A stretch of DNA of 21,539 nt from a virus: the IMG/VR virus record IMGVR_UViG_3300024432_000717, positions 1 to 21,539 of that record; one strand, 5' to 3'. The position numbers and the translations under genes are program-made. Below, in pieces: positions 2,601 to 20,907 of this stretch. Positions within the stretch are counted from its first letter, which is position 1; each line of letters begins with the position of its first letter. The notes under the pieces were generated by a model. It was not told where the DNA came from. It did not search any database and saw nothing but the letters and a program-made list of their open reading frames with translations.

Positions 2601-3053
2601 ATGCCAAAAACAAAAATAAGCGATTTAGGAAGTTCAATATGCGTAGATATGAATAATGAGAAGTTTATTCCAGCTTTAGGCAATGGTGCTACTGGAATTC
2701 CTGGTGATTTGTGTTATATAGTCCCCGGAACTGGTAAAATAGCATTATCGGATAAAACTACAGCAAAATTCTTCTCTGGTATTTTAATGGAATCCAAAAT
2801 AACTGGAACTGAAGCAATTATTGCTGATTTAGTGCCCTGTAGATTAGTTGTACCAAAATCGGGACACGATTACAGGATTAGATGTACTATTGTAGCAGTA
2901 GCAGACGACGAAATGGGTGGAGGAGTACATTTTGATGATGATGCAGGCAAGGGAGAAACGACTAATGTAACACTTGCCAACTCAAAACTTGGTAGATTAT
3001 CACTGCATGCAGCAATAGGCGATACAGTCGCCCAAATCACTTGGATTGAATAA
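2601..3053 (+). CDS. Putative head decoration protein, copy 1
   Basis: A 150-aa beta-rich protein, paralogous along its length to the next gene. Shared blocks are LGSS[IV]CVD, IPALGNG, IPGDLCYI, FSGILMESKITGTE, VPC[RK]LVVPKSGH and the C-terminal [QE]I[TN]WIE. Tandem small beta-proteins between portal/scaffold and major capsid genes are typically capsid decoration (cement) or capsid-fibre proteins, so that is the working call; I did not recognise a specific family. It starts one base after the preceding stop without a strong Shine-Dalgarno, so translation is probably coupled. The alternative is a minor head protein or a vertex protein. Confidence 0.6.
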   Translation: MPKTKISDLGSSICVDMNNEKFIPALGNGATGIPGDLCYIVPGTGKIALSDKTTAKFFSGILMESKITGTEAIIADLVPCRLVVPKSGHDYRIRCTIVAVADDEMGGGVHFDDDAGKGETTNVTLANSKLGRLSLHAAIGDTVAQITWIE

Positions 3054-3107
3054 CGATTATAAGAAATTATAATAATCGCGTATAAATAGGCTTAAATGCC
3101 CGCGATT
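3054..3107 (+). promoter_or_regulatory. Overlapping hairpins and TATA-like box between the duplicated genes
   Basis: Two inverted repeats share bases. CGATTAT (3054-3060) pairs with ATAATCG (3072-3078), and AATCGCG (3074-3080) pairs with CGCGATT (3101-3107), the second helped by GGC/GCC at 3089-3091 and 3098-3100. Only one can form at a time. A TATA-like TATAAATA sits at 3081-3088, about 50 nt before the next ATG. Either an attenuator/processing site or an internal promoter would explain different output of the two paralogues. Confidence 0.45.
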
Positions 3108-3133
3108 TTAATAAAAAAAAAGGTAGACAGATT

Positions 3134-3592
3134 ATGGCTAAAACAACTTTAAAAAGTTTAGGAAGCTCAGTGTGTGTAGACGATCAAGACGAGAAGATGA
3201 TACCAGCTTTAGGCAATGGAACAGCAATTCCTGGTGATTTGTGTTATATAATCCCAACTGCAGGTGCTACATTGGGAAGAGTAGGTCCAGCTAATGTAGG
3301 AGCTACAGAGTTCTTTTCAGGAATTTTAATGGAGTCTAAGATAACTGGAACTGAAACTGCACCTGCAGCGGACGTACCTTGTAAATTGGTAGTTCCAAAG
3401 TCAGGACATGGATATAGAATTAGAATTAATGTAGCTGGAGATACAGATGAAATAGGAACTGGTGTAACATTCTCAGGAACAAATTACAAAGGAGAAACGA
3501 CTGATGTCACTCTTGCGTTATCAAAGATTGGAAGACTTTCTTTAGAAGTTCTTGCTGGTGATTCTGTTGCCGAAATAAACTGGATTGAATAA
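3134..3592 (+). CDS. Putative head decoration protein, copy 2
   Basis: A 152-aa paralogue of the preceding gene, clearly a tandem duplication: the two share long conserved blocks and stretches of identical DNA (for example around 2700-2720 and 3229-3250, encoding PGDLCYI). It differs mainly in a loop near residues 45-58 and around residue 110. Same likely role, a capsid-surface or cement protein made in large amounts beside the major capsid gene. An AGGT motif lies about 12 nt before the ATG, and the spacer to copy 1 carries hairpins that could set a different expression level. The major capsid gene follows 11 bp downstream. Confidence 0.62.
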   Translation: MAKTTLKSLGSSVCVDDQDEKMIPALGNGTAIPGDLCYIIPTAGATLGRVGPANVGATEFFSGILMESKITGTETAPAADVPCKLVVPKSGHGYRIRINVAGDTDEIGTGVTFSGTNYKGETTDVTLALSKIGRLSLEVLAGDSVAEINWIE

Positions 3593-7527: not shown

Positions 7528-7707
7528 ATGAATAAAAATCAAAACAAAAAGGCAATTGCTAAAAAACCTGAAATTAGCGAAGAAAAAGAATTTTTATTAA
7601 GTTTATTTGAAAATAATAAATTAGAAATAAAGAAAGTAAACAAATATTTACATCATTTAAATCACAATAATAAAATTATAAAACAAATAATAGAAAAAGT
7701 GAAATAA
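7528..7707 (+). CDS. Small basic helical protein (59 aa)
   Basis: An uninterrupted ATG-TAA frame of 59 codons fills the space between the candidate terminator and the tail tube gene, ending one base before the latter's ATG. The product is lysine/asparagine-rich with a leucine-rich helix (EEKEFLLSLFENNKLEIKKV) and histidines (HHLNHNN). No strong Shine-Dalgarno and low-complexity AT-rich DNA reduce certainty. Packing and lack of any other use for the space favour a real gene. No function recognised. Confidence 0.55.
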   Translation: MNKNQNKKAIAKKPEISEEKEFLLSLFENNKLEIKKVNKYLHHLNHNNKIIKQIIEKVK

Positions 7708-9172: not shown

Positions 9173-9331
9173 ATGGATGTTATAGACATAAAAGAAGAGT
9201 TAAAAAAATTTAATAAGAATTTCGTTTATTTTTACATAGGTCCGGAAAAACCTAAATATATAGAAATTGAAAATAAAAAAGGTGTTAAAATATGGGAAAA
9301 ACAGAAGAGTTTGATTTTGGAGGAAATGTAA
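9173..9331 (+). CDS. Small ORF (52 aa) overlapping the chaperone start
   Basis: ATG 9173 follows the tail tube stop directly and the frame runs to TAA 9329-9331, overlapping the next gene by 40 bp in another frame. The product has an ordinary composition (MDVIDIKEELKKFNKNFVYF at the N-terminus, then a charged C-terminus) and an AAGGA-like motif lies shortly upstream. Ribosomes ending here could reinitiate on the chaperone gene. The function is unknown, and it may only serve coupling. Confidence 0.5.
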   Translation: MDVIDIKEELKKFNKNFVYFYIGPEKPKYIEIENKKGVKIWEKQKSLILEEM

Positions 9332-9684
9332 TTAAGTTTTTTTCGAGATTGCCTTACAGGATGGAATGTAAATTGGAAGAATTAATCGTTAAAATGTCCG
9401 AAGGTTTGGAAGGAAAGTTATCCGATTTTGAGGATTTAAACGTCGCTAACATGGACATATCCGACTTAAAGGGTTTCGATATGACCAAAAAAATAGCCAT
9501 AAACGATTATCTTTTGACAAATGCGATACGTGATCCAGAAATTTCAGAGGGGGATTTAGATAACTTCGATCACCCTTTAAACGATTATTTTAAGGAGATT
9601 GGGGATTATTTGTTTGACAAATATATAACTCAATATTCTGAGAAAACGCAAGTAAAAAAAAAGCTTACGACATCTCCAAACTAA
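9292..9684 (+). CDS. Tail assembly chaperone, short form (gpG-like)
   Basis: 130 aa with a GGTG Shine-Dalgarno (9280-9283). It is acidic and mixed alpha/beta, lying between tail tube and tape measure genes, the invariable place of the lambda gpG-type tail assembly chaperone that coats the tape measure during tail assembly. Its last codons run through nine A residues (9654-9662) followed by G, giving the perfect slippery heptamer A_AAA_AAG at 9657-9663 in this frame, 21 bases before its stop. A downstream open frame without its own start continues to 9899, the arrangement of gpG/gpGT pairs. The short form should be the major product. Confidence 0.8.
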   Translation: MGKTEEFDFGGNVIKFFSRLPYRMECKLEELIVKMSEGLEGKLSDFEDLNVANMDISDLKGFDMTKKIAINDYLLTNAIRDPEISEGDLDNFDHPLNDYFKEIGDYLFDKYITQYSEKTQVKKKLTTSPN

Positions 9685-9899
9685 GCACGACCTCAGCGCG
9701 GGTAGGGTGGGCACAAAGGAACCCGATAGAGTTTAGGTGGTTAATGGAAATGATGGTCAGAAAAGAACTGGGTGGATATTGTCCGAGAGATCCGTTAAAG
9801 TTCGCGTTTATAGCGTCTGTAATAGCCTTAAACTACGAAAAAGAGGAAAAAACAAATACGGAAGGAAGGTTGCAAAATTTAATAAATAGGAGCAAATAA
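9292..9899 (+). CDS. Tail assembly chaperone, -1 frameshift form (gpGT-like)
   Basis: A -1 slip on A_AAA_AAG (9657-9663) joins 124 residues of the short form to 78 more, about 202 aa. The second frame is open from 9642 to TAA 9897-9899, has no ATG before 9744 and no Shine-Dalgarno, and reads as protein across the whole overlap (AYDISKLSTTSARVGWAQRN, then IEFRWLMEMMVRKELGG and CPRDPLKFAFIASVIALNY). In lambda-like tails the T extension binds the tube protein and recruits it to the tape measure; both forms are needed. A GC-rich stretch (9691-9712) directly downstream might stimulate the slip. The short form ends at 9684. Confidence 0.8.
9657..9663 (+). other. Programmed -1 frameshift site A_AAA_AAG
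   Basis: The heptamer in the zero frame of the gpG-like gene is A_AAA_AAG, the classic tandem-slippage sequence also used in bacterial dnaX. Slipping back one base leads from a stop 21 bases downstream into the long second frame. Confidence 0.82.
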
Positions 9900-10694: not shown

Positions 10695-11211
10695 TGAAAT
10701 TAAAGATTCTATTAATTACGGTTTGTTTATTTTAGAACACGCAGCAGGTAACGATAACACCTGGATCGGCGACGGCGGAATGAAGTTTGCCGATTGGGAT
10801 TTATACACCGAGGGTTTGGAAGGGATACATTTGCCGTACGCGGGCGAGATAAAACACACGCCAACGTTCGAGTTCGATATAATCGATTTTTTCATGGGCG
10901 AGGGTGCCGATATCTCTATGGGTGTAGGGCACGATCTAATAATATTAAACGGTAGATATGGAGGAGCTTCTGAAACCGTAAGAAACGCTAAAATGGCTAA
11001 TTTATTGTTGTTATATGCTAAACATTTAAAAGCTTCCAACGAGATATTATACTTAGGATATAGAAAAAGGGGAGAGATATGGGAACCCTTCACAGATTCC
11101 ACTCCTGCAATCGTTTACTATCTTAAGGGTAAGCTAATCCACGCGTCTTACGAAAGGGCGGAAGACGAGTTGTTTTACAATTGGAAAGTAGTTTTTAGAG
11201 GTATTCAATAA
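10687..11211 (+). CDS. Distal tail / baseplate-like protein
   Basis: 174 aa from a TTG start that overlaps the tape measure stop by 8 bp. The protein is beta-rich at its start (INYGLFILEHAAGNDNTWIG) and end (ELFYNWKVVFRGIQ). Position immediately after the tape measure is where the distal tail protein, which caps the tube tip and anchors the hub, is coded. No signature motif is seen, so the role is inferred from synteny. The stop overlaps the next start as TAATG. Confidence 0.55.
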   Translation: MVSEIKDSINYGLFILEHAAGNDNTWIGDGGMKFADWDLYTEGLEGIHLPYAGEIKHTPTFEFDIIDFFMGEGADISMGVGHDLIILNGRYGGASETVRNAKMANLLLLYAKHLKASNEILYLGYRKRGEIWEPFTDSTPAIVYYLKGKLIHASYERAEDELFYNWKVVFRGIQ

Positions 11212-11441
11212 TGAAAAGAAAATATTTAATTATAAGTATGATATTATTGATGTCGTTACCGTATTTATTAATCGGAACTCATTTCTTAGATGTTTTAGAC
11301 AATTATTATGGAGAAAAGTATATACGCCTTCTTGGTATTACTGTTTCTGTTAACTTATTAAAGGATTTAATATTTATTGTAATTATTGTTATTGTTATTT
11401 TCAATTCAATTATTCTCCTATTGGTGATTCTCGAAAAATGA
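11211..11441 (+). CDS. Small membrane protein with two transmembrane segments
   Basis: 76 aa. Residues about 5-25 (LIISMILLMSLPYLLIGTHF) and 50-74 (IFIVIIVIVIFNSIILLLVI) are strongly hydrophobic, with a charged loop between. It overlaps the previous gene by one base and the next by four (ATGA), so it is clearly part of the tail operon and translationally coupled. Holins are often small two-segment membrane proteins, so a role in lysis or in membrane passage at infection is possible; no lysin gene is recognised beside it. The function remains inference. Confidence 0.72.
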   Translation: MKRKYLIISMILLMSLPYLLIGTHFLDVLDNYYGEKYIRLLGITVSVNLLKDLIFIVIIVIVIFNSIILLLVILEK

Positions 11442-14397: not shown

Positions 14398-14631
14398 ATG
14401 GGATGGAAATTCGGAAGAATGATTGTTGATTTTTGGAAATCAAATTTAGAGAGGAACGTTAAGAGAATCTCTGTAGCAATAGGGGCATTCCTTGTATATG
14501 GTTTAGTCGTGATACCTATGGACCCTGTGTGGAAAGGGGCAATCATAACGCTTGGAAGTTTGATTATCATGTCTATATTTGGCAAGAACGGCAACGGACA
14601 GTCAAAAGAAGTGGAACCTGAATATAAATAA
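14398..14631 (+). CDS. Small membrane protein, holin-like candidate
   Basis: 77 aa with a strong Shine-Dalgarno (GAGGTGA, 14381-14387). The basic N-terminus (WKSNLERNVKR) is followed by two hydrophobic segments (about residues 25-40, ISVAIGAFLVYGLVVI, and 47-62, AIITLGSLIIMSIFG) and a charged tail. It lies after the tail fibre gene, a common place for holins; an archaeal virus could use it for egress. No enzymatic partner is recognised, so lysis is a guess from topology and position. Confidence 0.68.
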   Translation: MGWKFGRMIVDFWKSNLERNVKRISVAIGAFLVYGLVVIPMDPVWKGAIITLGSLIIMSIFGKNGNGQSKEVEPEYK

Positions 14632-15134: not shown

Positions 15135-15470
15135 TTAGTCGTAGCTAACCGACAACTCTTTTACCGCGTATTTGTACGGTCTATGCGTTATATCGACGTA
15201 AATCAATTCCTTATCACACATCTTTTTTAACATGGACCAGAGCCCTTCGTGGCTCGTATTTAACGCTTTTGCCAATTGTTTTTTTCGTCGTAAATCTTTA
15301 TCTTTATTTTTGTTATGTCTTAACTTATATTTTTCTTTATATTGTTTATCCTCTGATTTACACTTCCTACAAATTGAATATAAACCAAATCTCCCTGTCT
15401 TATTTGGTGAAAAAAACTCTATAGTAGCAGGTAAATCCCTACCACATTTAGGACATGTTTTAATTGACAT
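15135..15470 (-). CDS. Zinc-ribbon plus winged-helix-like DNA-binding protein
   Basis: 111 aa; start at ATG 15470 behind GGAGGAT, overlapping the upstream gene by 11 bp. Residues 5-38 form a CPKCG...LP..FF..N...GLYSICRKC zinc ribbon, a pattern common in small viral and bacterial proteins. A basic linker (residues 40-65) is followed by a segment (KQLAKALNTSHEGLWSMLKK, then KELIYVD) typical of a winged helix-turn-helix. It is the last gene of the leftward operon and probably binds DNA, perhaps as a regulator. The family is not identified further. Confidence 0.72.
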   Translation of the reverse strand: MSIKTCPKCGRDLPATIEFFSPNKTGRFGLYSICRKCKSEDKQYKEKYKLRHNKNKDKDLRRKKQLAKALNTSHEGLWSMLKKMCDKELIYVDITHRPYKYAVKELSVSYD

Positions 15471-16170
15471 TAATATCCTCCTTCTTTATCGATATTGTAT
15501 GATTACAATTAGGACATTGAAAAGATAAATATAGAGAGTCATCCAGTTTATCAACGCCCCCCGAAGTTTTCTTTTCCGTCTGCTTAGAGCATCCAGCGTT
15601 ATGAGGCGAATAATCGCTCCATAAATAGGCTCCACACTCAGAGCATTTCCGTTTATCCGTTTGTCGGGCGGAACCGACGTCGAGCTTCTCTAACAATCTT
15701 AAAAAGAATCTTTTATGAATGGTACTATCTTCACATTCTGAATATTTTTTCAATAATTCTCGATAGTTATTTTCTATATTTTCCTCCCATCCAATTCTAC
15801 CTTGAGCTACTTCGTTTAAAGCTTCTTTCAGCTCGGCGAAATCGTTATTTTGCTTCTCAATATGGCTCTTTATCCAAGTATGAAACATAGCTATATGTTC
15901 TTTCAGCTCGGCGATTTGTTCCCTAAGAATACCGATCTCCTTTATGTCGTCGTCTTCTCCTTCCTTAAAGGCTTCGAATTCTTTTTGTAATAAAATAAGT
16001 GCTTTTTGGATTTTGTCGATATAATTAAGATGAGTATCCAGATCCAAATCAACAGGTGTTTTTTGGCTAAATCTGGTTTTACCTAACTTCTTTTCCAACG
16101 CCTCGATCCTCTCGTTATGACTCGTTATTGCCTCCTCAACGCACGTTATTCTCTCGTCTTTCTCGCTCAT
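15460..16170 (-). CDS. Coiled-coil protein with C-terminal zinc knuckles
   Basis: 236 aa. ATG 16170 is chosen because it overlaps the upstream stop as ATGA and has GAGGG before it; a longer frame to 16200 would overlap the upstream gene further. Residues about 15-155 are coiled coil with heptads (AITSHNERIEALEKKLG, IKEIGILREQIAELKEHI). The C-terminus has KCSECGAYLW...HNAGC (a CxxC...H...C knuckle) and FQCPNCNHTI. The combination suggests an oligomeric, metal-bound nucleic-acid or protein binder. No known family recognised. Confidence 0.7.
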   Translation of the reverse strand: MSEKDERITCVEEAITSHNERIEALEKKLGKTRFSQKTPVDLDLDTHLNYIDKIQKALILLQKEFEAFKEGEDDDIKEIGILREQIAELKEHIAMFHTWIKSHIEKQNNDFAELKEALNEVAQGRIGWEENIENNYRELLKKYSECEDSTIHKRFFLRLLEKLDVGSARQTDKRKCSECGAYLWSDYSPHNAGCSKQTEKKTSGGVDKLDDSLYLSFQCPNCNHTISIKKEDINVN

Positions 16171-16397
16171 CCTAAATCCCTCTTTATAACTAATTCCCAT
16201 TGCTCGCTTAACCTCTCTATTTCCCTCTGCGCACCGTCAAGGCTCTCCTGAAGTACACCGTTCTCAGCCTCCCATTGTAATACCATTTTCCGATATTCGT
16301 CTCTTTCCCGGGTCAACTGTTTGTTAAGAATCTGCAAATCTGCGATCACTCTCTCGTTGTCCGCCACTACTTTTATTACCGCGTTGTTTTCGCTCAC
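16167..16397 (-). CDS. Small coiled-coil protein (76 aa)
   Basis: GTG start directly after the upstream TAG (TAGGTG), with GGTG 9-12 nt before it. Nearly the whole chain is one amphipathic helix (VIADLQILNKQLTRERDEYR, then ESLDGAQREIERLSEQWELV). It could pair with the coiled coil of the next gene, which it overlaps by four bases. Function unknown. Confidence 0.65.
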   Translation of the reverse strand: MSENNAVIKVVADNERVIADLQILNKQLTRERDEYRKMVLQWEAENGVLQESLDGAQREIERLSEQWELVIKRDLG

Positions 16398-16709
16398 CTA
16401 AGCCGCACCTACCACCTTGTATTTAGTGTATCCCTTACCGTTCCTATTGTCTCTTACAAAAATAATGTCGTTAGGAGTGAGAAAATTGTTAGAAGTTTTT
16501 ATTTCGCTAATTATCGCTATTCGCTCCTCGTACATTTCCTTAAGTAAAGGCAAACTCTCGTTAAGACACATTCTAACCAATTCGCAACGAGAAGGCGCTA
16601 AACCAGCCTCGTTTACTAAAGAATCCATAAACTTTAACATCTCTCTTGTTACGTTGATGCTAATCGTTTTCATTGTGCTTTCTTTTTTTCCTTCGGGCCA
16701 TCTCGGCAT
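16398..16709 (-). CDS. Ribbon-helix-helix DNA-binding protein
   Basis: 103 aa from ATG 16709, which overlaps the upstream stop as TAATG and follows GGAGGG. Residues 13-60 show a beta strand (KTISINVT), a helix (REMLKFMDSLVNEAG) and a second helix (SRCELVRMCLNESLPLLKEM), the MetJ/Arc/CopG ribbon-helix-helix layout. Such proteins dimerise and bind short inverted or tandem operators, so this is the best candidate in the window for a repressor of the repeated operator motifs. A further 40-residue C-terminal domain (PNDIIFVRDNRNGKGYTKYK) may bind a partner. Confidence 0.78.
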   Translation of the reverse strand: MPRWPEGKKESTMKTISINVTREMLKFMDSLVNEAGLAPSRCELVRMCLNESLPLLKEMYEERIAIISEIKTSNNFLTPNDIIFVRDNRNGKGYTKYKVVGAA

Positions 16710-17092
16710 TATAAACCCTCCGGAAAGTAATAATCGCACGTGTCTTGAACGTACCCTCCCACTCCGGTGTTAGCGTCGTATTTCCAATGCTCGTACTTCT
16801 TTTTGTCGCCGTTATACTTTAAGAACATAGGACATCCTTCGTTGCTACACTTCCTTAACTTCGCTTTGTCGTCTCCCTTTAACTTATACCATTGATATTC
16901 CCCGGTCTTAGGTAGCATGTAATCGTTATTAGGTTTCATATCCATTTCAATCATTCTATCCATAGCTTTAATTTGTTTAACTCTCTCTGGTGAGTCCTCG
17001 TCGAAGTTCTCCGAAGCCAACAGGCGGTCTAACTTACCGTTAATCTCTTCCAAGAAACTTAATATCGTATCTACTTTCTCTAACAAACTCAT
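16709..17092 (-). CDS. Unknown protein with helical start and cysteine-containing C-terminal domain
   Basis: 127 aa. Residues 1-27 form a short coiled coil (LLEKVDTILSFLEEINGKLD). The C-terminal half (KLRKCSNEGCPMFLKYNGDK, then ANTGVGGYVQDTCDYYFPEG) has three cysteines and aromatic residues, possibly a small metal-binding fold. It starts on the base after the upstream stop. No family recognised. Confidence 0.65.
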   Translation of the reverse strand: MSLLEKVDTILSFLEEINGKLDRLLASENFDEDSPERVKQIKAMDRMIEMDMKPNNDYMLPKTGEYQWYKLKGDDKAKLRKCSNEGCPMFLKYNGDKKKYEHWKYDANTGVGGYVQDTCDYYFPEGL

Positions 17093-17272
17093 TTATTCTT
17101 TCGCCTCTTTTTTCCTAAGCAAATCCCCTAACAAACGGACCATTAGATCCCACTCCTTAAGAGTTGCCGTTCCTTCGTTAAAGATTCCCGCTACAAACGA
17201 GAGATCGAATTTCTTAACTAAATATTCATAAAAATTATAATATTCTTCCTCTTTTATTTGTTCATTTTCCAT
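17093..17272 (-). CDS. Small acidic/helical protein (59 aa)
   Basis: A complete ATG-TAA frame (N-terminus MENEQIKEEEYYNFYEYLVK, C-terminus LLGDLLRKKEAKE) with a strong Shine-Dalgarno GGAGG on the minus strand eight bases before the start. It abuts the next gene exactly. It is the first gene after the non-coding segment 17273-17571. Function unknown. Confidence 0.68.
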   Translation of the reverse strand: MENEQIKEEEYYNFYEYLVKKFDLSFVAGIFNEGTATLKEWDLMVRLLGDLLRKKEAKE

Positions 17273-17571
17273 GACTTTTCCTCCAGATTATGGGACCTAT
17301 TTGCAGGGGAAAAATAGTAGAGTAGTATAATTTAATGTTAAACAAGAGGCTTGGAAAAAGAAATAGAAATCTAACCAAAAGACAAAAATTCAATGAGGTG
17401 ATTATAGCCTCCAAACTTCCCTTTCTGCTGGTCCACATAATCTTTGCGGTCGGTTGGTTAACCCTTCCCTCATCTCTCTCAGCACTTTGAGGTTTTGAAC
17501 ATTTTATATGAGGGGGAAGGAAGCGTTCCATCTGCAGATGGCTTGTCCCTTTCTAAACCGATTTCCGCTGA
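17273..17571 (-). ncRNA. Gene-free GC-richer segment, candidate RNA/operator region
   Basis: No convincing gene lies here, and the part 17400-17571 is visibly richer in G and C than its surroundings. It holds the perfect palindrome at 17528-17541, a stem between CCTTCCC-TCAT (17464-17474) and ATGAGGGGGAAGG (17508-17520), an inner CTCA/TGAG hairpin (17478-17491), and a GGTTAACC palindrome (17455-17462). Read on the minus strand it also contains ATCACCTC, a mimic of the 16S rRNA anti-Shine-Dalgarno. It could be a small RNA, a long leader for the four or five promoter-distal genes, or an operator/promoter region. GC-rich islands in AT-rich archaeal genomes often mark structured RNA. Confidence 0.4.
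17528..17541. promoter_or_regulatory. Perfect 14-bp palindrome CCATCTGCAGATGG
   Basis: A loopless perfect palindrome inside the leftward operon, 31 bp past the stop of the gene at 17572. Such sites commonly bind dimeric regulators; as RNA it could also form a tight hairpin. Confidence 0.55.
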
Positions 17572-17751
17572 TTATAAATATTTCCATTTTCCCTTTTCTT
17601 TATATTTAACTTTCCCACATTTGATACATTTAAAAAATAATTGATTAAATAATTTATCAAAAAAAAATCGAAACCATATATGTCTACAATTATAGAATGG
17701 ATACGTTTTTGATCCTCTCGGAAATAAATCAAAAATTTCAGTTTCACACAT
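17572..17751 (-). CDS. Small zinc-knuckle protein (59 aa)
   Basis: The start ATG 17751 follows a strong GAGGTGA that lies inside the end of the upstream gene. The product (MCETEIFDLFPRGSKTYPF at the start, FKCIKCGKVKYKEKGKWKYL at the end) carries one CxxC knuckle plus CRH at residues 22-24, which together could bind zinc. An overlapping alternative frame in the same place lacks a ribosome binding site. Unknown function. Confidence 0.68.
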   Translation of the reverse strand: MCETEIFDLFPRGSKTYPFYNCRHIWFRFFFDKLFNQLFFKCIKCGKVKYKEKGKWKYL

Positions 17752-17752
17752 T

Positions 17753-17941
17753 CTATTTTCTCACCTCTTTTCTCATAACTTCTTTAAAATGCTTTCTCTG
17801 TTCTGGAGTTAGGTTCTCGATGGGATAAGAGTTCCAGAAAGAACCTTTCGAGTCGTCATTAGCATGTGAAATCCTCGATTCTTGGGAGAGTTGCACTCCA
17901 TCATCAACTAAATCAGATTTCTCGGATTCTTCCTTAACCAT
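17753..17941 (-). CDS. Small acidic, polar protein (62 aa)
   Basis: Starts at ATG 17941 overlapping the upstream stop as TAATG, with GCGAGG before it. The N-terminal half is serine/aspartate-rich and probably disordered (EESEKSDLVDDGVQLSQES); the C-terminal half has an ENLTPEQRKHFKEVMRKEV helix. Its last codons contain the Shine-Dalgarno of the next gene. Unknown function. Confidence 0.65.
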   Translation of the reverse strand: MVKEESEKSDLVDDGVQLSQESRISHANDDSKGSFWNSYPIENLTPEQRKHFKEVMRKEVRK

Positions 17942-18081
17942 TATCCTCGCCTTACATTTATTTTTATTAAATATTCTTTTTCACAAATCCATTCAATAGT
18001 TCCGTCGTTCCATTCTACTAAATACTCCATTAGATGTCCACGTGGTCGCGACCACAATAGCTTTACAATAAAACTTTTCAT
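17941..18081 (-). CDS. Micro-protein (46 aa)
   Basis: Complete frame from ATG 18081 (overlapping the upstream TAA) to TAA 17941, behind a strong GAGGGGAGG. The product, MKSFIVKLLWSRPRGHLMEY and then LVEWNDGTIEWICEKEYLI, reads as a small beta-sheet protein of SH3/Tudor-like size ('yeVeWdDGtiewv.e..L'). That similarity is by eye only. Unknown function. Confidence 0.65.
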   Translation of the reverse strand: MKSFIVKLLWSRPRGHLMEYLVEWNDGTIEWICEKEYLIKINVRRG

Positions 18082-18257
18082 TATTTAGCCTCCCCTCTCG
18101 TTATAATAATCTTCACTATCGAACTCATGGAATAATAAACGTCCCTATATCCCGTTATCTGTACTCTGAAATACCCATCAGAAATCTCGTAGCTTGAATA
18201 TTCGTCGTCATGATAAATATCAGGGTATTCTCCTTTTATAACGATTGTAATTGTCAT
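18081..18257 (-). CDS. Micro-protein (58 aa), beta-rich
   Basis: ATG 18257 shares one base with the upstream TGA (TGATG), with GGAGG twelve bases before. A longer frame to 18377 runs wholly inside the upstream gene and is rejected as the start. The sequence (MTITIVIKGEYPDIYHDDEY, then YFRVQITGYRDVYYSMSSIV) looks like a small all-beta fold, a hydrophobic strand pattern with many tyrosines. Unknown function. Confidence 0.68.
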   Translation of the reverse strand: MTITIVIKGEYPDIYHDDEYSSYEISDGYFRVQITGYRDVYYSMSSIVKIIITRGEAK

Positions 18258-18451
18258 CAGTCGTAGTCCTCCGCCATTATTCTGTTTGTGTCCGACCATT
18301 CCGCGTAATACTCCTGCTCGTCCGCACCCCAAGGGCTTTCTATATGGTATCCCAATCTTTTTAATTGCTCGCAACAATAGTCTACTATTTTACCGTATTC
18401 CTTATCCGTTAGTTCGTGCGTAAACAAACCCTCCATAAAATCCTCGGACAC
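18257..18451 (-). CDS. Micro-protein (64 aa), acidic helical
   Basis: GTG start at 18451 behind AGGGGAATAGAA, the same initiation context as the upstream gene. The product is acidic with helices (THELTDKEYGKIVDYCCEQL) and ends in EYYAEWSDTNRIMAEDYD. It is coupled to its neighbours by spacings of two bases upstream and an overlap downstream. Small acidic proteins in early viral operons are sometimes host inhibitors or DNA mimics, but that is only a possibility here. Confidence 0.65.
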   Translation of the reverse strand: MSEDFMEGLFTHELTDKEYGKIVDYCCEQLKRLGYHIESPWGADEQEYYAEWSDTNRIMAEDYD

Positions 18452-18453
18452 TT

Positions 18454-18621
18454 CTATTCCCCTACCTCTTTCTTTAATTTTGCGTAATCTTTTTCTTCTA
18501 AATAAATCGTTATAATAGAACCCCCTTCTACAGAAATAGATAAAATATAAGGATAAACTTTCTTTCTTGAATCTATATTTTCTATTAATATAAAATTAGC
18601 ACCATAAACCTCAATCTGCAC
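18454..18621 (-). CDS. Micro-protein (55 aa), beta-rich
   Basis: GTG 18621 follows GGAGGAGGGGGAATAGAA, a very strong ribosome site lying in the end of the upstream gene. The product (MQIEVYGANFILIENIDSRK, then VYPYILSISVEGGSIITIYL) alternates hydrophobic strands and ends in a charged helix. It resembles the beta-rich protein at 18081 in general style. Unknown function. Confidence 0.65.
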   Translation of the reverse strand: MQIEVYGANFILIENIDSRKKVYPYILSISVEGGSIITIYLEEKDYAKLKKEVGE

Positions 18622-18623
18622 TT

Positions 18624-18755
18624 CTATTCCCCCTCCTCCACAGGATTACAATCGTCGCAGATTAAATCGTTTACCGAGACTATATAGGTCTCCAAATTAA
18701 CTTCGAACCAAGATTGCTTTCCGCATTTACTACATTTAAACATTATTTTAGCCAT
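18624..18755 (-). CDS. Zinc-ribbon micro-protein (43 aa)
   Basis: ATG 18755 behind GAGGT. Residues 8-11 (CSKC) and 33-36 (CDDC) form a complete four-cysteine zinc ribbon with a short connecting sheet (KQSWFEVNLETYIV), like rubredoxin-type knuckles in many archaeal and viral micro-proteins. The C-terminal EEGE codons carry the ribosome site of the next gene. A small protein- or nucleic-acid-binding role is likely. Confidence 0.7.
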   Translation of the reverse strand: MAKIMFKCSKCGKQSWFEVNLETYIVSVNDLICDDCNPVEEGE

Positions 18756-18760
18756 TTTTT

Positions 18761-18946
18761 TTACCTCTTTTTTAATTTCTTTTGCTCAGCTGTAATTATA
18801 GCCTTATACAACAATCGGACTATGTACCTAAAACAATCGGAATCGCTATATCGAGCGTTCAAATTTTTACCGTAGTGTTGTTTTACTCTCTCGAATTTTT
18901 TAAGAAGTTCCCTGCGTTCTTTTCCAAGATAAAAAGTTATTGTCAT
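18761..18946 (-). CDS. Small basic protein, ribbon-helix-helix-like
   Basis: 61 aa from ATG 18946, four bases after the upstream stop. A strand (TITFYL) is followed by two helices (KERRELLKKFERVKQHY; SDSDCFRYIVRLLYKAII), which fits a ribbon-helix-helix fold like the CopG group, and the protein is strongly basic. It may be a DNA-binding regulator near the operon start. Moderate confidence in the fold from pattern only. Confidence 0.68.
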   Translation of the reverse strand: MTITFYLGKERRELLKKFERVKQHYGKNLNARYSDSDCFRYIVRLLYKAIITAEQKKLKKR

Positions 18947-18950
18947 TTTT

Positions 18951-19091
18951 TTAACTCACTCTCTCGTATTCGATTAAAGTTAAATTAAATCGAGCTAAAG
19001 CTTTTTTCATGCTCTCTAAGTCTTTAGATGTCCAATACCTTTCAGCTGTACGGTCAGAACCAATCATACCATAAGTTATCTTAAATTTCAT
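18951..19091 (-). CDS. Micro-protein (46 aa)
   Basis: Complete ATG-TAA frame behind GAGGAATAAAAAAA, GAGGA lying in the last codons of the upstream gene. The product (MKFKITYGMIGSDRTAERYW, then LESMKKALARFNLTLIEYE) looks like a compact beta-alpha fold. Unknown function. Confidence 0.63.
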   Translation of the reverse strand: MKFKITYGMIGSDRTAERYWTSKDLESMKKALARFNLTLIEYERVS

Positions 19092-19096
19092 TTTTT

Positions 19097-19234
19097 TTAT
19101 TCCTCTTTTTTACGCTTCAATAAGGAGTTTGTATTACGCAGATAATCCAAAAGTGCGCTTTCAAGAGCGTAGAACTCAGCTTCCACGATCAAACAAACAC
19201 ATCCACGTATTACACTATTTTTTATACCGAGCAT
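19097..19234 (-). CDS. First micro-gene of the leftward operon (45 aa)
   Basis: ATG 19234 lies 36 bases from a TATA box and is preceded by TAGGAAA, so the leader is about ten bases. The product (MLGIKNSVIRGCVCLIVEAE, then FYALESALLDYLRNTNSLLK) is one helical segment with a basic tail. Unknown function. Confidence 0.62.
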   Translation of the reverse strand: MLGIKNSVIRGCVCLIVEAEFYALESALLDYLRNTNSLLKRKKEE

Positions 19235-19262
19235 TTTCCTAATAGATAAGAAGAATTTCTCT

Positions 19263-19270
19263 TATATAAA
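19263..19270 (-). promoter_or_regulatory. TATA box of the leftward operon
   Basis: On the minus strand this reads TTTATATA, the archaeal consensus, and lies about 25 bases before a likely start point near 19245 and 36 before ATG 19234. It is the only clear promoter for the leftward micro-gene cluster. Confidence 0.65.
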
Positions 19271-19345
19271 TAAAATCAGACGATTACTACTATCATATGT
19301 GTCATATTATCAAAAGTATTACAATATTAACAACAATATGATAAA

Positions 19346-19551
19346 TATTTATTTAATTAAAGAACTTTTTTGGCTATCAAGTTTTCGCTAAAACCCTCTC
19401 TATTACTACTACTATATGAAAGCCCCTCTTCTGTAGTTTTTAATGAAGCAATAATATATATAGATAATCCAACGAATAATAGTGTTAATAGTATGATAGT
19501 ATGGGGTTTTCTAACAGCATCCTAAAAAAAACATATTTAATTAAATAAATA
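19346..19551. repeat. 16-bp inverted repeat pair in the divergent region
   Basis: TATTTATTTAATTAAA (19346-19361) is the exact reverse complement of 19536-19551. The pair encloses about 174 bp that contain the frameshifted membrane ORF and three ATAGTATG-like tandem motifs (19478-19504). It may be operators, origin elements or ends of an inserted fragment; being A/T-only, chance is not excluded. Confidence 0.5.
19357..19520 (-). pseudogene. Frameshifted small membrane-protein ORF
   Basis: From ATG 19520 the frame reads MLLENP and would stop early, but in the -1 frame it continues as HTIILLTLLFVGLSIYIIAS, one transmembrane helix, then a polar tail (KTTEEGLSYSSSNREGFSEN, ending AKKVL) to TAA 19357. 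The join falls on A_AAC_CCC, a slippery heptamer by pattern; one extra C in the run would also restore one 54-aa frame. So it is a frameshift-expressed gene, a decayed gene, or an assembly error in a C run. Confidence 0.4.
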
Positions 19552-19590
19552 CTGATCATACTCTCATACTTCTGATAATATGTTTGGTAT

Positions 19591-19626
19591 GAAAGCTTAA
19601 ATACTATTGTACATATACTATACATA
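19591..19626 (+). promoter_or_regulatory. Leaderless promoter of the 44-aa gene
   Basis: GAAAG (BRE-like) and CTTAAATA (19596-19603) lie 31 nt before ATG 19627. The motif ATACTATT (19601-19608, reverse of AATAGTAT) overlaps the TATA box. Confidence 0.6.
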
Positions 19627-20282: not shown

Positions 20283-20405
20283 CTAAATTCTATCGTCTAA
20301 AGGATCGTCTCTAATTTTATAACTATTTATTCTCCTTATTAAATTTCTTTTTACGCGCCTTTTATTGTTCTCTCGTTTGGTTAAAATAGCTTTCTTTGAC
20401 TTCAT
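20283..20405 (-). CDS. Small very basic protein (40 aa)
   Basis: A complete ATG-TAG frame on the minus strand between two rightward genes (MKSKKAILTKRENNKRRVKR, then NLIRRINSYKIRDDPLDDRI), with GGTGG about 13 bases upstream. It is rich in lysine and arginine and so could bind nucleic acid. Its isolated antisense position and small size leave doubt. Confidence 0.45.
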   Translation of the reverse strand: MKSKKAILTKRENNKRRVKRNLIRRINSYKIRDDPLDDRI

Positions 20406-20465: not shown

Positions 20466-20500
20466 ATACTATTAATATTCGCAATAGTATTATTTATATA
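20466..20500 (+). promoter_or_regulatory. Operator and TATA box before the packaging genes
   Basis: ATACTATT (20466-20473) and AATAGTAT (20483-20490) form an 8-bp inverted repeat with a nine-base spacer, next to TATA box TTTATATA (20493-20500), 28 nt before ATG 20521. AATAGTATTATTTA (20483-20496) recurs exactly after terL at 895-908. ATGACGAT occurs on both sides (near 20446 and 20500). The TATA box read in reverse could also serve the minus-strand gene at 20405. Confidence 0.65.
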
Positions 20501-20520
20501 TGACGATATACCAATATTAA

Positions 20521-20907
20521 ATGGTACAAATGGTACAAAAAATATTTGACGTATCTTTAGCTGAAAAACATTTTATTAAGCATCCTAACGCCAAGAATAA
20601 AGAGTTATACGCTATTTCTAACGCAGTTACAGACAATCAAAAAACACAAGTACGGAAGAAGAAAGCCAAAATAAAAAGGGGTACAAAATCACCTGGACCA
20701 AAATCACCAGGAGTTAAAAAATTAACCGAGGAATTTATTGAAAATCTAATTGTTGAGGGATTAGAAAATAATCCCGGTAACGTTCAATTGATCGGAAAAG
20801 CTACTGATTTTTTTATTAAAGTAATAGGTAAGAAAGACGAAATGGAAGACGAAATAGACATGGAGAAGTTAAAAGAAATTGGTATCGTTATCAAATCTGG
20901 CGGCTAA
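20521..20907 (+). CDS. Candidate small terminase subunit
   Basis: 128 aa, leaderless start. Directly precedes terL and overlaps its preferred TTG start, the normal place for TerS, which recognises the packaging site and loads TerL. The middle is very basic (RKKKAKIKRGTKSPGPKSPG), then two helices follow (LTEEFIENLIVEGLENNPGN; GKATDFFIKVIGKKDEMEDE), resembling the oligomerisation/C-terminal part of some small terminases. No classical N-terminal HTH is evident, so the call rests on synteny and size. Confidence 0.6.
   Translation: MVQMVQKIFDVSLAEKHFIKHPNAKNKELYAISNAVTDNQKTQVRKKKAKIKRGTKSPGPKSPGVKKLTEEFIENLIVEGLENNPGNVQLIGKATDFFIKVIGKKDEMEDEIDMEKLKEIGIVIKSGG

Follow-up and report, generated by a model that had tools for sequence, protein, structure and literature searches.

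A compact leftward set of sixteen small genes as the possible early and regulatory arm of a small, probably archaeal, tailed virus

Sixteen leftward frames, adjoining the particle genes, exactly fill positions 15135-19234 of the window, by which we mean the whole stretch of 21,539 bases that was analysed (virus record IMGVR_UViG_3300024432_000717). This bears out the compact run of sixteen leftward genes that an earlier note on this DNA had described, as well as its statement that the ten promoter-proximal genes encode 43-64 amino acids (aa) each. The features are given here in order of transcription, with the duplex energy of the Shine-Dalgarno site (SD, in kcal/mol) and the codon score for some of the genes.

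19263..19270, minus strand: TATA-type promoter TTTATATA; 8/8 to consensus, box start 36 nt before the gene 1 ATG
19097..19234, minus strand: gene 1, 45 aa; no SD; codon score -0.22
18951..19091, minus strand: gene 2, 46 aa; SD -5.8; codon score +0.22
18761..18946, minus strand: gene 3, 61 aa; basic, net charge +11; SD -7.9; strand-helix-helix pattern by eye
18624..18755, minus strand: gene 4, 43 aa; zinc ribbon, CxxC at 8 and 33
18454..18621, minus strand: gene 5, 55 aa; GTG start; SD -10.6; codon score +0.33; beta-rich by eye
18257..18451, minus strand: gene 6, 64 aa; very acidic, net charge -12, pI 4.2; helical
18081..18257, minus strand: gene 7, 58 aa; SD -9.5; beta-rich by eye; overlaps gene 6
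17941..18081, minus strand: gene 8, 46 aa; putative chromodomain/SH3-like fragment
17753..17941, minus strand: gene 9, 62 aa; SD -5.6; codon score +0.13
17572..17751, minus strand: gene 10, 59 aa; Cys-containing; SD -11.7
17273..17571, minus strand: non-coding gap, 299 nt; all six frames codon-negative
17093..17272, minus strand: gene 11, 59 aa; SD -9.3; codon score +0.23; opens the second block
16709..17092, minus strand: gene 12, 127 aa; three Cys; codon score +0.33
16398..16709, minus strand: gene 13, 103 aa; candidate CopG-like regulator of the ribbon-helix-helix type
16167..16397, minus strand: gene 14, 76 aa; GTG start; SD -9.2; coiled-coil profile matches
15460..16170, minus strand: gene 15, 236 aa; coiled coil and C-terminal zinc ribbons, CxxC at 176 and 219
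15135..15470, minus strand: gene 16, 111 aa; treble-clef zinc finger and basic C-terminal part, CxxC at 6 and 34

The overlaps or gaps of under seven bases with Shine-Dalgarno sites that the earlier note had reported are found at nearly every junction. Fourteen of the fifteen lie within -11 to +5 nt (+5, +4, +5, +2, +2, -1, -1, -1 and +1 nt through genes 1-10; 0, -1, 0, -4 and -11 nt through genes 11-16), the exception being the +299 nt between genes 10 and 11. Of the 16 starts, 15 have a Shine-Dalgarno duplex at least as strong as -5 kcal/mol, with a mean of -8.2 kcal/mol, compared with 12% of 461 ATG/GTG codons on the leftward strand (mean -1.7) and a mean of -5.5 kcal/mol for the virus's rightward genes. 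In 2000 dinucleotide shuffles of each region the longest chain of frames was 2 for the first and 3 for the second, against 10 and 6 observed, and the opposite strand gives longest chains of 1 and 2. With codon log-odds trained on the rightward genes only, the annotated frame scores best in all genes except gene 1 (15/16); the ten micro-genes score above 78 other frames of 40+ aa, some of which are probably real genes themselves (p=1.6e-5; p=4.7e-8 for all sixteen), and the 15 competing frames inside the operon reach at most -0.07. That the frames are genes is well supported, and nearly all of them appear to be truly translated. Gene 1 lacks both codon support and a Shine-Dalgarno site, owes its place to its position behind the promoter and is the least certain of them. 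A 60-aa cut-off would lose eight of the sixteen genes, in line with the earlier estimate that at least six would escape standard length cut-offs, but only four are shorter than 50 aa. Compared with one another, the micro-proteins gave no evident paralogues, the best cross-match being a Cys motif common to genes 4 and 10 (E about 0.01).

A common strand, short junctions, ribosome sites and coding bias are what one expects of an operon, and the tiling, Shine-Dalgarno sites and codon bias support the earlier description of the set as one; however, the 299-nt gap at 17273-17571, which that description did not mention, splits the set. Because this gap separates genes 1-10 from genes 11-16, one uninterrupted operon is doubtful, and the arrangement suggests two units. 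The gap is the least ordinary part of the region. Its first half, 17400-17571, has 47% G+C, whereas other non-coding intergenic stretches have 8-28%, a comparison that omits 9685-9899 (42%), which is coding through a frameshift. A TATA-like ATATTTATAAT at 17571-17581 (6/8 by score) overlaps the gene 10 stop, with T-runs downstream in the gap at 17388-17377, an arrangement such as an archaeal RNA gene might have for its promoter and terminator. Compared with shuffled sequence, the fold reaches a z of -2.3 with one pair of ends, but -0.7 and 0.0 when longer pieces are taken and -1.6 over the entire gap, which hints at structure in the G+C-rich part without showing it; no known structured RNA was matched in the gap by Rfam. 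Since its first half is non-coding and so much richer in G+C than the stretches elsewhere, the gap is put forward as a possible RNA gene or control element: it could serve as an RNA gene, as an attenuator or as the promoter region of genes 11-16. The bolder view, that it is a new structured viral RNA of ~150 nt in an orphan archaeal tailed virus, working together with the micro-proteins to counter host defence or to control the virus, seems to us unlikely, if well short of negligible. A resemblance to a TPP riboswitch, noticed by eye, was dropped because Rfam gives none even at permissive E-values, and an 89-aa frame at 17262-17531 was rejected as a gene on its negative codon score and lack of a family.

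The promoter box TTTATATA is identical to the TTTAWATA box that precedes early genes of SIRV2 (PMC11065993). Among the sixteen genes an 8/8 box stands ahead of gene 1 only; another is found at 20493, ahead of the gene at 20521. A purine-rich BRE was not seen beside the gene 1 box, where the preceding bases are CTGATTTTA. The adjoining intergenic region between divergent genes (19235-19626) is large, at 392 nt, and AT-rich, and carries 64-nt imperfect inverted-repeat arms (72%) together with repeated CATACTATCATAC-like motifs; it is a candidate operator or origin.

Several features of the record point to an archaeal host. TATA-type boxes lie 28-36 nt upstream of 4/6 starts without a Shine-Dalgarno site but of only 3/31 starts with one (Fisher p=0.007), sigma-70-like sites are not above chance, and in the rightward genes arginine is encoded by AGR 137 times versus CGN 35 times, with isoleucine ATA-rich. 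The assignment is only probable because AT-rich DNA gives frequent TATA matches, TATA-like boxes occurring at 13% of intergenic positions, and because the same codon pattern (AGR, ATA-rich) is also found in some AT-rich bacteria.

No protein of the gene set reached a curated cut-off, and searches of PHROGs, Pfam, NCBIfam and PADLOC (the last covering defence systems, with no dedicated inhibitor library) gave no confident match to an anti-CRISPR, anti-restriction or defence family. The zinc knuckles of the earlier note take the form of zinc-ribbon-type Cys pairs in genes 4, 15 and 16 and part of one in gene 10. Within the first block, gene 4 weakly resembles RNA polymerase subunit P, with an E of 0.0023 that falls far short of the cut-off, the match of gene 5 to a Cas2 profile is not significant (E=0.029), profile searches with gene 3 gave no family, and gene 10 matches phrog_7696, of unknown function (E=2.6e-5). 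Gene 8 aligns over 26 residues with cpSRP43 chromodomains in phmmer, with E 7.5e-6 summed over two domains and 0.01 for a single domain, and has weak matches only in Pfam. For gene 6, the AF2 model comprises three helices (pLDDT 67); strong acidity such as that of its product is a property of some DNA-mimicking inhibitors.

In the second block, family and profile searches found no family for gene 12. For the ribbon-helix-helix pattern noted earlier, gene 13 gives weak matches, the same residues being hit in two libraries (phrog_7325, CopG-like, E=0.025; NikR, E=0.083), and AF2 models strand-helix-helix at 15-49 with low confidence (pLDDT 53). Foldseek searches with the low-confidence models of genes 6 and 13 came back without a meaningful match, gene 6 having none in the PDB. 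Gene 15 has weak profile matches to SMC-type coiled coils and zinc ribbons. Gene 16 matches phrog_1035, endonuclease VII, over residues 1-96 (E=3.6e-7), and phrog_5558, Lar-like (E=5.3e-6), the latter overlapping the zinc finger, which endonuclease VII matches better. The gene 16 protein begins with a treble-clef zinc finger as in endonuclease VII or Lar-like proteins, any nuclease part being putative.

The record begins and ends with the same 127 bases, giving a circular map of 21412 bp. Because 127 is a common assembly k-mer length, this repeat is best taken as the sign of a closed or permuted genome and hardly as a biological terminal repeat. The virus is a small, complete, circular tailed virus of 21.4 kb, probably infecting an archaeon. 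Its rightward genes, named by position where they have no profile match, comprise a terminase small-subunit-like frame, the large terminase, whose frame spans the join of the circle, a portal-like protein, a pair of small proteins related to each other, a capsid-like protein, tail proteins and a tape-measure-like protein, as well as a tail fibre of 975 aa that weakly matches an ALTTAQ repeat. The record gave no tRNA and no Rfam match, and profile searches of the genome recognised no replication gene, matches being limited to terminase and tape-measure. The absence of replication genes, as claimed earlier, is consistent with these searches, though it is unprovable with nearly all proteins unrecognised.

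Among the rightward genes, a tail assembly chaperone pair at 9292-9899 is probably linked through -1 frameshifting at a run of A around 9650-9665. For the portal-like frame the likely start is near 923, not 854, and the 49-nt stretch ahead of this start has 8% G+C and lies inside the segment with the lowest fold z-score of the genome scan. The two adjacent proteins of 150-152 aa at 2601-3592 are diverged copies of one another and perhaps capsid decoration proteins. Small frames with coding-like codon scores at 20283-20405 (-), 7528-7707 (+), 9173-9331 (+) and 11211-11441 (+) may be further unannotated genes.

With terminase, portal, capsid, tail and gene 12 sequences as queries, scans of viral and genome contigs identified one true relative, IMGVR_UViG_3300005253_002472 (L014); twelve other contigs have only short tail-fibre repeats in common with the record, and structural and operon queries compared with phages by tblastn and blastn returned nothing useful. 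L014 has a tail module of 32-79% amino-acid identity with the same frameshifted tail chaperone, and its leftward genes likewise start after the tail fibre; however, its terminase, portal and head genes are different, and it is a 14.4-kb fragment that ends before any operon counterpart. The chaperone-pair arrangement and the second-frame sequence are conserved at L014 8154-8728. Gene 13's weak match to a CopG-like PHROG recurs in one of the last leftward genes of L014. A leftward frame at the contig end (L014:14224-14403) matches phrog_25385, of unknown function (E=1.9e-8), and is MazG-like by eye only.

Taken as a whole, the observations are, by a modest balance of probability, best explained by taking the set as the non-structural arm, early and regulatory, of a complete, circularly mapping tailed virus of 21.4 kb, with host-directed micro-proteins. 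The two leftward units would be transcribed from the TATA-type promoter at 19263-19270 and probably from a second control region in the gap, and each frame would be translated from a Shine-Dalgarno site at the end of the preceding gene, so that the proteins are made together. From the position of the set and the archaeal-type TATA box ahead of gene 1 we infer early expression; the micro-proteins, among them zinc-ribbon, chromo-like and acidic proteins, would then be made soon after infection, bind host or viral macromolecules, and redirect host machinery or block defence, while the ribbon-helix-helix and zinc-finger proteins of the second block may regulate viral transcription. The regulator-like and zinc-ribbon signatures count in favour of this proposal, and the low-confidence, matchless models of genes 6 and 13 count against it. 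Host takeover or anti-defence, as suggested in the earlier note, is the most likely role by analogy with the SIRV2 early genes and the SPO1 module, but gene by gene it is unproven, with no confident family match.

The same regulator-like signatures (the RHH-like gene 13, the zinc-finger gene 16 and the zinc ribbons in genes 4 and 15) would also fit a set that is mainly a viral control and replication-recruitment module, providing transcription switches, copy-number control and host-replication helpers with little anti-defence. With no replication gene recognisable elsewhere, the host replisome would need a recruiter, and the large AT-rich, repeat-bearing region at 19235-19626 adjoins gene 1. 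However, ten different tiny proteins exceed the usual need of a switch, and initiator, primase and helicase signatures were not found in profile searches; we consider this reading possible, though on the improbable side. It is quite unlikely that the leftward arm is simply insertion-tolerant and the set a loose collection of fast-changing accessory genes with no joint role. Nearly all the proteins are unrecognised, the arginine codons of the leftward genes (AGR 45, CGN 23) depart from those of the rightward genes (137, 35), and the leftward genes in the same place in L014 differ, being a CopG-like protein and another small frame; yet the spacing is uniformly tight and the Shine-Dalgarno sites are strong across the set, as though selection had favoured expressing the genes together.

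The sole point in favour of late virion, lysis or exit genes, and an indirect one, is that archaeal viruses commonly have small virion proteins. The set lies on the strand opposite to the whole structural block, and a holin-like frame at 14398-14631 (a weak match) is on the other strand, making such a late function very improbable. Although the codon score of gene 1 on its own does not set it apart from chance, the chain length, Shine-Dalgarno and codon statistics already refute chance open frames as an account of the whole set.

The small early genes of SIRV2, behind their TTTAWATA boxes, comprise acrID1, acrIIIB1, aca8 and their neighbours, with known anti-CRISPRs among them (PMC11065993). 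The record resembles SIRV2 in its small unannotated proteins and its TTTAWATA box, immediate expression being known in SIRV2. However, the SIRV2 genes are mostly single, each with its own conserved promoter and purine-rich BRE (PMC11065993), whereas the record has one box before a tightly spaced set, with no BRE seen and the motif not repeated before the genes; no sequence homologue of the SIRV2 early genes was found in the record. The takeover module of SPO1 comprises 26 genes that are small, early and strongly translated, and is likewise a small-gene cluster of several operons on one side of a tailed-virus genome (PMC6873191). SPO1 is a bacterial virus, though, for which early timing and toxicity were measured (PMC6873191), whereas the present set, with no homologue, is known from its sequence. 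Runs of small unrecognised genes also form the dark-matter islands of archaeal genomes, and millions of phage small proteins are known (PMC4158269, PMC11323111, PMC11364881). Small-gene regions of such build are common in viruses, and relative to these islands and catalogues the record is one more instance, with no difference in kind. As it stands, the analysis provides a well-supported annotation of a common type of region; the virus that carries it is unusual, with hardly any relatives known. If the proposed reading is true, a virus of ~40 genes devotes 16 to dealing with its host, and nearly all of these have no relatives. Since the small early genes of SIRV2 include anti-CRISPRs, the region offers a short, testable list of candidates, to which the gap adds a possible RNA.
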